Shown here one piece after another: positions 36,819 to 56,458 of a DNA stretch of 64,000 bases. Position 1 is the first letter of the stretch, and each line of letters begins with the position of its first letter. The notes under the pieces were generated by a model. That model did no database searches. It saw only the letters and a list, made by a program, of their open reading frames with translations, and was not told the DNA's origin. The DNA is from Liolophura sinensis (Eukaryota > Mollusca > Polyplacophora > Chitonida > Chitonidae), in the NCBI RefSeq assembly GCF_032854445.1, contig NC_088295.1, positions 37,790,510-37,854,509 of the forward strand. Direction: 5' to 3'. The position numbers and the translations under genes were made by a program.

Positions 36819-36910
36819 CTACCAATCAGAATACATCTCTTGTGAATAATCCGTTGATCTGATCTTGTGTGGGAGGCGAATGCGTCTCGCGAATTCTCGG
36901 AATGTGTCGT
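36819..36910 (-). CDS. Candidate peptide precursor, exon 3
   Basis: The acceptor is tgtttcttttcag. With one carried base it reads DDTFREFARRIRLPHKIRST then DYSQEMYSDW and TAG. Paired Arg in FARR is a possible further cleavage site. Confidence 0.6.
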
Positions 36911-54900: not shown

Positions 54901-56458
54901 TTATCGTGACAGATTTTTTATCGTGACAGATTTTTTATTGTGACAGATAACCAAGGGCTGTGACATATTTTTTAATAACCAGGTGGTAGTCATGACATGT
55001 CGGCATCGGTGCTTTGGCGACAATTATCAATCGATATTCAAGGCGGTCTTACTATTCACTTGACATCACTTGTCACCCCAGTAGGGCCTAAATTCTGAGC
55101 TTGCTCTCGGTGAAAAAATGTCTGTCACATGTGGAGAAAACTCGACAATTACTTGCCAAAGGTTGGTGGTTTGCTCCAAACACCTTTGTTTCCTTCACAC
55201 GACACTGGACGTCGCCGTAGAAATGAAACATTTTTGAGAATGGCGTTAAACACTAATCAACCAATTAATTAAGCAATTGTAATAAAGGCTATATGTAATA
55301 TAAGTGGCGACTGTGACAAAATTATTCACGGTTCGCCTGTTAATGGAGAAACGTCTGACTTTCACCTGGTTGTCGAAGTTGTGACCCAAAAAGAATATTA
55401 AAATGATTAAATGCTCGCACTCGTCACGATATACGTGACATATACTGCCGACATTTGCTACTCATCACGATATACTTGACATATACTGCCGACATTTGCC
55501 ACTTATTACGACATACGTGACATATACTGCCGACATGGTCCAGTTGGAGTAAAGTGATCATTCATTTTAACTTAGCCAGCCAAGGTGGTAAAACAGCAAA
55601 CAGTACGACCATAGATATATATTAAGATCCACTATTCCACTGATTTCAGATTTCATTTTAATGACTTTTTACTTATCAGTTTCTACACAACTGAAAGCAT
55701 ATCAGAATCAAGATGAAGTGTTACGCAGTCACACGATTTGAATTTGGCTCTCGGTTTATTTATATTTAAAATAAAATGCTTTAAACGCTTGCGCCGTTAA
55801 TTTATGTATGAAATAAATGTGTTTTCAATAAGCTCTGAGGGTCTTCTCAACTGTTATGATGCAGTTTATTTGTTTATTTTTTTAATCAGCTCAATAGTGC
55901 GGGAGTCAAATAAAGTGATTTATGCCACAAACAAACATTTATTGATTGCTCATCGGGCTATCTCATTGACTTCTTTAGTTATACATGTTGAATTTAAATA
56001 TACATAAATCAGCAGGCCTATATACGTACATGTAGCTGGGTAGGTGAGTGAAAAGATGTGTTACACCTGGGATGGTCAGTTACAATTATTTGCCCATTTC
56101 CTCCACCCGAGGGTGGATATACATGTAAAGGTCTAAGTTAAAAAAAATATTCTTAAGTAAGTATTAAAACAAATTAAATAAATATATAAATTCCAGAAAT
56201 TGTCTTCAGAAATAATCAAGAGAACAATATTTATCCACCGGTGCATGTAGAAACACGTGATGAAGAAAGAGGTACTTTTCTCTGGCAAACGACATACATT
56301 TTGTAAGTAAACTGGACAATTTTAAAACAATCCATATACTTACTGCTTCTCATATCACCAAGAAAGACTCCTGATCGAATGGTCCAGACCTGGGCAAACA
56401 GTGCGAACAGAATTGCACCTTGTACGAGTAGTTCTACCCCTTTCCTTCTCGTGTCCAT
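36819..56458 (-). CDS. Candidate secreted amidated-peptide precursor (three exons)
   Basis: Not recognised by family. Three minus-strand exons (56344-56458, 37606-37791, 36819-36910) have good splice sites and agree in phase (1-nt carry at both junctions), giving about 130 residues. Residues 1-30 form a signal peptide (basic start MDTRRKG, hydrophobic GAILFALFAQVW). Exon 2 gives a dibasic RR followed by Gln, then about 41 residues rich in Pro, Tyr and His ending PSPYAFYHTY-GKR; known processing rules predict a pyroglutamate start and Tyr-amide end. After it come a Ser/Glu-rich acidic stretch, FARRIRLPHKIRSTDY and the stop. There is no Cys. This layout is that of neuropeptide or hormone precursors. 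The join of exon 1 to exon 2 across 18.5 kb rests on phase and signal-peptide logic only; other exons may exist in the intron. Confidence 0.58.
37606..37791 (-). CDS. Candidate peptide precursor, exon 2 with predicted active peptide
   Basis: The acceptor follows a T-rich tract (tttttttctgttcgccag); the donor is gttagg. Reads RRSDDGRRQVYLFLKLWRPP, LLHYHDDLPRQPARSSPTKP and SPYAFYHTYGKRSSSYEQSG. Two dibasic sites upstream and GKR downstream bracket one candidate peptide of about 41 residues. Confidence 0.65.
37792..39345 (-). other. Part of the candidate precursor's long intron, little else seen
   Basis: AT-rich sequence. A possible SINE head sits at 38787-38863. No further exon with matching phase was recognised. 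Confidence 0.45.
38787..38863 (-). mobile_element. Possible SINE tRNA-like head fragment
   Basis: 'gattcgaacttgcgatct' (B-box complement) and 'attggtcaaaggtcgat' resemble the copy at 58893-59127. Short and diverged. Confidence 0.4.
39349..39453. repeat. (AT)n then (GT)n microsatellite
   Basis: About 39 AT units (39349-39426) followed by about 13 GT units (39427-39453). Confidence 0.97.
39454..41155. other. Intronic/intergenic stretch without a recognised feature
   Basis: No domain, repeat or exon recognised between the microsatellite and the next SINE. Confidence 0.5.
41156..41344 (+). mobile_element. SINE, 5' truncated
   Basis: Starts at the B box (gttcaagtccag), continues with 'ggccgtacgggggaaggtct', 'gcggatggtcgtgagtttcc' and the tail 'ccaatcaaataaataaataa'. 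Confidence 0.92.
41442..42165. mobile_element. PIF/Harbinger-like DNA transposon remnant with inverted ends
   Basis: The ends are inverted: AAAGCCGCGTTTAGACTAC at the left, and AAGCCCCGTTTACACTAC on the opposite strand at the right. CG-rich 'gggccgagccc' blocks sit inside both ends, and further copies of cgtttacactac lie at about 41969 and 42082. Flanking TAA/TAT is compatible with a degraded TWA target duplication. The interior codes on the minus strand for a Myb/SANT-like DNA-binding segment. No DDE transposase is present, so it is non-autonomous or gutted. Confidence 0.65.
41644..41961 (-). pseudogene. Myb/SANT-like DNA-binding protein fragment of a Harbinger-type element
   Basis: From an internal Met (about 41847) it reads STNRGATWTKEETEQLLAIW then GEENVQAQLESARHNENI, matching the start of Myb/SANT-like (trihelix-type) domains that accompany PIF/Harbinger transposases: W-T-K-E-E, LL-x-IW and the VQ-x-QL-x5-RN helix. 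The domain then breaks into unrelated sequence, so the copy is truncated. It lies inside the inverted-end element. Confidence 0.62.
42180..43960. other. Stretch without a recognised feature
   Basis: AT-rich with short ORFs only; probably inside the long intron of the candidate peptide precursor. Confidence 0.5.
43961..44226 (-). mobile_element. Full-length tRNA-SINE
   Basis: Complete reverse copy: tail complement 'tttatttatttatttgattg', 'gtgttttacgccgtactcaa', body, B-box complement 'tggatttgaactcacagcg' and A-box complement 'ctaaccaactgagccacgg'. Close to the 49427 copy. Confidence 0.95.
44778..44899 (+). mobile_element. SINE 3' half
   Basis: From 'acatggtcatgggtttcccc' through 'agtgaaatattcttgagtac' to the 'caaataaataaataaata' tail. 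Confidence 0.92.
45400..45589 (-). mobile_element. SINE, internally deleted
   Basis: Tail complement, 'ttcacttatacgacggcggc', then a shortened middle and the B-box complement 'ggacttgaactcacagtg'; head A box missing. Confidence 0.9.
45590..49412. other. Stretch without a recognised feature
   Basis: 3.8 kb without clear exon, array or mobile element. The 114-codon ORF at 48111-48455 has no recognisable motif and no splice context. Confidence 0.5.
49427..49691 (+). mobile_element. Intact tRNA-SINE with 14-bp target duplication
   Basis: The best copy in the window. A box TGGCTCAGTCGG at 49437-49448, B box GAGTTCAAGTCC at 49504-49515, then the family body and 'aatcaaataaataaataaa' tail. TATTAAACTGCTCA flanks it exactly at 49413-49426 and 49692-49705, marking a recent LINE-assisted insertion. 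The open frame across it is not a gene. Confidence 0.97.
49706..50009. other. Stretch without a recognised feature
   Basis: Nothing recognised between the intact SINE and the following GC-richer block. Confidence 0.5.
50010..50320. repeat. Possible repeat-derived block of unusual base composition
   Basis: GC-richer than its surroundings, with 'ccacattatactgacaccgg' and 'ctaaccaatcctgcttcctt', phrases I associate loosely with repeats in marine invertebrates. No second copy in the window; low certainty. Confidence 0.3.
50321..52110. other. Stretch without a gene; holds a 20-base poly(G) run
   Basis: The G run is at 50984-51003. Otherwise AT-rich with short ORFs of no evident coding character. 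Confidence 0.5.
52111..52282 (-). mobile_element. SINE, head missing
   Basis: Tail complement (tttattt)n, 'gttttacgccgtactcaaga', a rearranged middle, then 'cgtacggccggagaggaagc'. Confidence 0.88.
52340..52960. repeat. 54-57 bp minisatellite with higher-order duplication
   Basis: Units share 'acaatggggtctcatgatgt' and 'tggtcacacgtaaccgat'. A larger block 'aaccaatgcagatcgggcga ... gatgacgcacgggca' occurs twice (about 52651-52745 and 52830-52922). Confidence 0.88.
53614..53871 (-). mobile_element. Full-length SINE with target duplication
   Basis: Tail complement through body to the B-box complement 'ggacttgaactcacagcg' and a degraded A box. Flanks CCACCAACGTGGCG (53600-53613) and CCACCAATATGGCG (53872-53885) are a 14-bp duplication with two changes, so it is older than the 49427 copy. 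Confidence 0.93.
54150..54985. repeat. 32-34 bp minisatellite, about 24 copies
   Basis: Unit core 'cagattctgtaataaccagg' plus a variable 'ggttgtcatga' half. Two adjacent 32-bp units (agattatataacaaccagca...) near 54246-54310 are identical. Confidence 0.92.
55135..55273 (+). mobile_element. SINE of a related family, 3' part
   Basis: 'acttgccaaaggttggtggt', 'ttccttcacacgacactgga', 'tttttgagaatggcgttaaa', 'cactaatcaaccaattaatt'. The same body type with a different, non-AATAA tail. Confidence 0.7.
55412..55540. repeat. Three tandem copies of a 41-44 bp unit
   Basis: Core 'cgtgacatatactgccgaca' repeated three times with 'cacgatata' between. Confidence 0.9.
56344..56458 (-). CDS. Candidate peptide precursor, exon 1 (signal peptide)
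   Basis: ATG at 56458-56456 with A at -3 and G at +4; an in-frame ATG 15 bases upstream is weaker. Reads MDTRRKGVELLVQGAILFAL then FAQVWTIRSGVFLGDMRS and donates at gtaagt with one spare base. Typical n-, h- and c-region of a signal peptide. Confidence 0.6.

Follow-up and report, generated by a model that had tools for sequence, protein, structure and literature searches.

The known kind of peptide that appears nearest to the candidate presented here is neuropeptide KY (NKY), a lophotrochozoan peptide. All eight molluscan classes have been reported to contain this long Tyr-amide peptide, whose core is FW[RQ]P[LM]G[YG] in NKY-1 and G[YF]WIWMPAQG in NKY-2 (PMC6425005). The NKY peptides used here have 36 residues in scallop (PMC5996578) and 44 in Platynereis (PMC6389622), with an RYamide end in both; in oysters the length is 38 residues (PMC4200219). 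Here we analyze a candidate peptide gene on the minus strand of a 64-kb stretch of the genome of the chiton Liolophura sinensis (C1:37790510-37854509, hereafter the window, whose numbering is used throughout). Judging from its sequence, this gene rather probably encodes a real preprohormone for one pyroglutamate (pyroGlu)...Tyr-amide peptide, to which we assign no family. The assembly, searched as 609 Mb in 632 contigs, was published as Liolophura japonica (PMC11068029) and the species was later corrected to L. sinensis (PMC12441733).

A preliminary description of this DNA had proposed three minus-strand exons with matching phase. The coordinates and the joined translation confirm this model: the exons 56473/56458-56344, 37791-37606 and 36910-36819 join in phase to 408 nucleotides, which encode 135 amino acids and a stop codon, and the exon edges at the two junctions lie at GT or AG sites. 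Exon 1 holds two in-frame ATGs, at 56473 and 56458, the second of which had been taken as the start codon. The features are as follows (a slash marks an exon edge).

56344..56473, minus strand: exon 1, with its start at 56473 or 56458, a basic n-region, the hydrophobic stretch VELLVQGAILFALFAQVW and a phase-1 donor GTAAGT after 56344; putatively joined to exon 2.
37792..56343, minus strand: predicted intron 1, GT...AG, 18,552 bases long; it contains tandem repeats and apparent interspersed ones.
37606..37791, minus strand: exon 2, with RR-SDDG-RR, the 41-residue peptide, GKR and the beginning of the acidic stretch.
Edges of exon 2, minus strand: acceptor TTTTTTTCTGTTCGCCAG/G and donor CAG/GTTAGG.
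37646..37768, minus strand: predicted mature peptide QVYLFLKLWRPPLLHYHDDLPRQPARSSPTKPSPYAFYHTY, within an RR...GKR stretch at 37774-37637; processing predicted from the known convertase and amidation rules.
37637..37645, minus strand: predicted Gly-Lys-Arg cleavage and amidation site.
36911..37605, minus strand: predicted intron 2 of 695 bases, GT...AG.
36819..36910, minus strand: exon 3, with acceptor TTTCTTTTCAG/A, then the rest of a D codon that the junction splits, followed by DTFREFARRIRLPHKIRSTDYSQEMYSDW and the stop codon TAG.
56669..56690, minus strand: two TATA-like motifs, by motif match, with first bases 56690 and 56675, some 200 bases 5' of the start codon.
35906..35911, minus strand: AATAAA about 0.9 kb past the stop codon, with ATTAAA also at 36701 and 36244, by motif match.

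The joined translation runs from a hydrophobic N-terminus through GVFLGDMRS, RR, SDDG and a second RR to a 41-residue Gln...Tyr segment, followed by GKR, a tail and the stop codon. The order given earlier (RR, Gln-start peptide, GKR, acidic spacer, stop) is thereby borne out, with two RR sites present, at residues 44-45 and 50-51; the former is encoded across the exon 1/2 junction, and SDDG lies between them. Exon 2 contains the RR...GKR arrangement, in which a dibasic site and a Gly-dibasic site of the amidation type flank the peptide. The 40-residue tail starts out acidic and has a basic middle part, with 8 Asp/Glu and 6 Lys/Arg in all. There is no Cys among the 135 residues, as had also been stated. 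Small neuropeptide precursors commonly lack both Cys and a Pfam domain, and the same lack in the candidate counts in favor of the precursor reading.

The analysis shows open frames with agreeing phases, splice-like sites, and dibasic and GKR sites, together with searches that found no second copy and alignments that gave no clear similarity to NKY-1. From established prohormone biology we infer transcription, splicing over 18.5 kb, secretion, every processing step and the receptor. Mechanistically, the precursor would enter the secretory pathway by way of its hydrophobic N-terminal segment, and a prohormone convertase would cleave it on the C-terminal side of RR (residues 50-51) and of GKR (residues 93-95). 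A carboxypeptidase and the amidating enzyme would then convert the exposed Gly to the amide, and the N-terminal Gln would cyclise to pyroGlu. The predicted product is one 41-residue pyroGlu...His-Thr-Tyr-amide peptide with a monoisotopic mass of 4979.58, which would most likely act via a rhodopsin-type peptide receptor. Since this is the mechanism of an ordinary amidated peptide hormone, the surprise would be moderate.

An accidental line-up of open frames with splice-like sites and dibasic residues may also produce such a gene model, which we regard as rather unlikely. The in-phase model and its strong splice sites speak for a real gene. Ranked over one strand of the window by approximate splice matrices, the acceptor of exon 2 stands second among 3372 AG sites, which argues against accident, and that of exon 3 is 68th; among 3754 donors, those of exons 2 and 1 rank 47th and 133rd. 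The chance test counted exons of 60-450 nucleotides with a dibasic...G-dibasic segment, and the two real strands yielded one distinct peptide. Among 400 Markov-shuffled strands, none held a qualifying exon at the site scores of exon 2 itself, again speaking against accident, and three held at least one at the weakest site scores of the model. Extrapolated from one 64-kb strand to the 609-Mb genome, the latter rate corresponds, at this weaker threshold, to roughly 140 exons arising by chance, so that exon 2 alone is no proof. A step in base composition also favors a real exon: the G+C of exon 2 is 0.489 versus 0.333 in its flanks (rank 756 of 12763 same-size windows).

Other results weigh against a real precursor and for a chance alignment. 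Codon usage, trained on a small set of 7 open reading frame (ORF) pieces, does not separate the candidate from non-coding frames and is neutral or unfavorable: 67 of 283 non-coding open windows matched the score of exon 2, 39 of the 283 matched that of the whole coding sequence, and exon 2 scored lower in its claimed frame (-0.047) than in either other frame (-0.002 and 0.045). The G+C of exon 1 is ordinary (rank 2510 of 12774; exon 3, 2474 of 12782), and the residues at its putative signal-peptide cleavage site are only fair by eye. Of 200 shuffles of the upstream 26.2 kb, 34 contained an in-phase signal-peptide-like first exon as good as exon 1. Besides, a genome scan reads many windows, so some chance models are to be expected. 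Exon 1 alone had a codon score of 0.065, above the 95% point (0.050) of 61-codon windows.

Exon 1 is the weakest link of the model. A simple hydropathy rule finds it signal-peptide-like, with a hydrophobic stretch after a basic n-region, and, given the shuffle rate above, its 18.5-kb join to exon 2 is something we infer, as the preliminary description did. Exons 2 and 3 may be real and follow another first exon, which would provide a different signal peptide, or exon 1 may come from another gene; this alternative, which overlaps with the preferred reading, seems unlikely to us. Besides the distance and the chance rate, it draws on an in-phase candidate at 44.9 kb that is more hydrophobic than exon 1 (2.63 versus 2.40), a further point against the model as drawn, though this candidate sits in an apparent interspersed repeat. 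In the upstream scan, which covered phase 1, exon 1 as used was the best signal-peptide-like candidate outside apparent repeats, and it has TATA-like motifs upstream, both of which argue for keeping it. The TATA-like and poly(A) motifs are plausibly placed around the candidate gene, yet such motifs are common.

The candidate gene is apparently single-copy. A genome search with the whole precursor (E up to 0.001) returned only its own three exons, and one with the RR...GKR stretch (E up to 10) returned only itself; since no other match was found, the candidate is not a repeat. The search scores the best candidates only and may thus have overlooked a distant paralogue. Viral contigs, also scanned, yielded no relative. 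Taken together, the shuffle counts (0 of 400, or 3 of 400 at the weaker scores), the G+C step of exon 2, the single copy and the rank of exon 1 outside repeats lead us to favor a real preprohormone; the probabilities that we attach to it and to its alternatives overlap and are not meant to sum to one.

With NKY-1, the candidate shares a single long peptide per precursor, a C-terminal Tyr-amide and, close to the N-terminus, a W-[RQ]-P core. However, it has LWRPPLLHY in place of FW[RQ]P[LM]G[YG], starts with Gln instead of Lys and ends in HTY-G-KR (HTYamide) instead of the RYamide of the scallop and Platynereis peptides, with the Tyr alone in common. This chiton also appears to have an NKY-1 elsewhere. 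Although the scallop NKY query found no match in the chiton genome, that of Platynereis led to a 199-residue ORF on scaffold C13 (E 2.6; L041:1024-1620, plus strand, C13:26358514-26359110), which ends in KKSAAFWRPLGGLAIETRLSNMGRKMMRPASQDGKAGASILRYG and a stop codon. Its local alignment scores with Platynereis and scallop NKY (74 and 46) were each reached by none of 2000 shuffles. The ORF contains KKSAAFW and an FWRPLGG core, with no Lys directly before x-FW (that is, not KxFW), and has no Pfam match. As it ends in RYG directly at the stop codon, the Gly that would donate the amide is its final residue and no basic cleavage site follows. We accept the locus as apparently the NKY-1 of this chiton on account of its architecture, its FWRPLGG core and the shuffles, and not of the E-value.

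The alignments of the candidate itself are of another order. In local mode, 604, 953 and 107 of 2000 shuffles scored at least as high as the candidate did with Platynereis NKY, scallop NKY and the chiton NKY-1 (20, 19 and 23), and in global mode 54, 180 and 23 did so; a separate run with other shuffles gave, for scallop and Platynereis, 1007 and 590 (local) and 173 and 51 (global) of 2000. The global signal is weak, and we do not trust it, as what the sequences share is chiefly W-R-P and the Y-G end. We rejected the candidate as NKY-1: the apparent NKY-1 lies on C13, the local alignments are not clearly above shuffles and the core differs.

That the candidate belongs to a known Tyr-amide family, above all to the NKY-2 type, and has diverged strongly from it seems improbable. 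The length, the single peptide, the Tyr-amide end and the W-R-P core do recall NKY, and the global alignments with chiton NKY-1 and Platynereis NKY point the same way. Moreover, the gene for NKY-2 did not turn up in the chiton genome by DNA pattern alone: the strict pattern gave no matches, and its WIWMP core gave 11 sites (control 4), none of which looked NKY-like on visual inspection. Against it stand the local alignments, the presence of an apparent NKY-1 on C13, the lack of a Lys start and of RYamide, and the lack of G[YF]WIWMPAQG; with NKY-2, compared by consensus only, the candidate shares just the long Tyr-amide peptide. The corresponding patterns for NKY-1 returned one site in strict form (control 0), which looks non-coding, and 21 in loose form (18 in the reversed control), none with an in-frame RYG within 80 codons. 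A third pattern gave 5 sites (control 2), none with an in-frame RYG within 100 codons; these 5 include the strict-pattern site and one that overlaps a loose-pattern site. All three patterns missed the apparent C13 NKY-1, which starts KKSAAFW.

Comparison with other families covered Pfam, PDB sequences and the NKY-1 of three species, together with the hallmarks of NKY-2, PXRX, NPF/NPY, luqin/RYamide and allatotropin. The candidate precursor has no Pfam match, and a PDB sequence search gave nothing significant (one match at E 2.2). Luqin-type peptides have an RF/RY-amide ending and a Cys pair in the precursor; the candidate has an aromatic amide end as they do, but lacks both R[FY]-amide and the Cys pair. 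Gastropod allatotropin-type peptides end in ...HGYamide, and the candidate likewise carries His two residues ahead of the Tyr-amide. However, it is far longer and has no GFR start, unlike the scallop allatotropin GFRQGIVMRIGHGFamide (PMC5996578). NPF/NPY peptides resemble it in having about 40 residues and an aromatic amide end, but the candidate lacks their R-x-R-[FY]-amide motif (PMC6389622) and has no intron at a C-terminal Arg codon, where the peptide is split in the oyster NPF/NPY genes (PMC4200219). PXRX peptides of conchiferan molluscs carry four conserved Cys and, in most cases, P[FM]R[WY] (PMC6425005), in contrast to the candidate, which is free of Cys.

The element had been put forward as an undescribed neuropeptide or hormone precursor. 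The precursor anatomy supports the second part of this proposal, and no family tested by Pfam, PDB, NKY-1 or hallmarks fits. The word undescribed applies within the running text of open-access papers, where pieces of the peptide gave no recognised report and the matches look unrelated by title. We propose tentatively, with more doubt than assurance, that the candidate represents a new neuropeptide family, one that may occur in chitons or Aculifera alone, defined by one long pyroGlu...YAFYHTY-amide peptide that lies whole in exon 2 of three and has its own receptor. Our general impression is that neuropeptides have received less study in chitons than in gastropods and bivalves. If true, the new single-peptide prohormone would provide orphan peptide receptors of molluscs with a ligand, and it would serve to mark the neurosecretory cells of Aculifera.

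The composition of the peptide allows another function. With 5 Lys/Arg versus 2 Asp, 7 Pro and one RPP motif in its 41 residues and no Cys, it bears some resemblance to secreted, proline-containing, mildly basic host-defence peptides, in which amidation and dibasic processing also occur. Nevertheless, one lone peptide flanked by RR and GKR is typical of prohormones, and nothing tested lends support to host defence, which we hold to be very improbable.

Some further elements were observed around the candidate preprohormone gene. An acidic, repeat-rich ORF on the plus strand (window 63562-64000 and L005:1-1331) seems to continue beyond the window end, and its only Pfam match, Cornifin-like, is below the cutoff. 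About 53 kb past the 3' end of the candidate gene, an uninterrupted minus-strand ORF (L007:2949-4166, C1:37773458-37774675) encodes a receptor of the rhodopsin-type/Srw kind (Pfam 7tm_1, 2e-18) with weak PDB likeness to peptide receptors (best E 1.6e-06); a ligand-receptor link is not implied. On the plus strand, positions 10670-19059 hold exons of a deacetylase that we take, from its sequence, to be SIRT1-like, with Pfam SIR2 at 14870-15094 (E 4.7e-17) and 15732-15980 (E 1.5e-14) and DUF592 at 10670-10972 slightly below the cutoff.

Judged by eye, a recurrent interspersed element occurs at 43919-44249, 44573-44994, 49268-49736, 52034-52341 and 53516-53848, and also in L004, L006, L007 and L008. 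Its translations read like VLRRTQEYFTYTTA..IMVG or, in another frame, FTPYSRIFHLYDGGQHYGG, and it resembles a short element common in molluscs. Minisatellites with units of 41, 45 and 42 bases lie at 26418-27131 and 29108-30048; the 42-base one comprises 22.5 copies with 93% matches and falls within ORFs of up to 365 codons.

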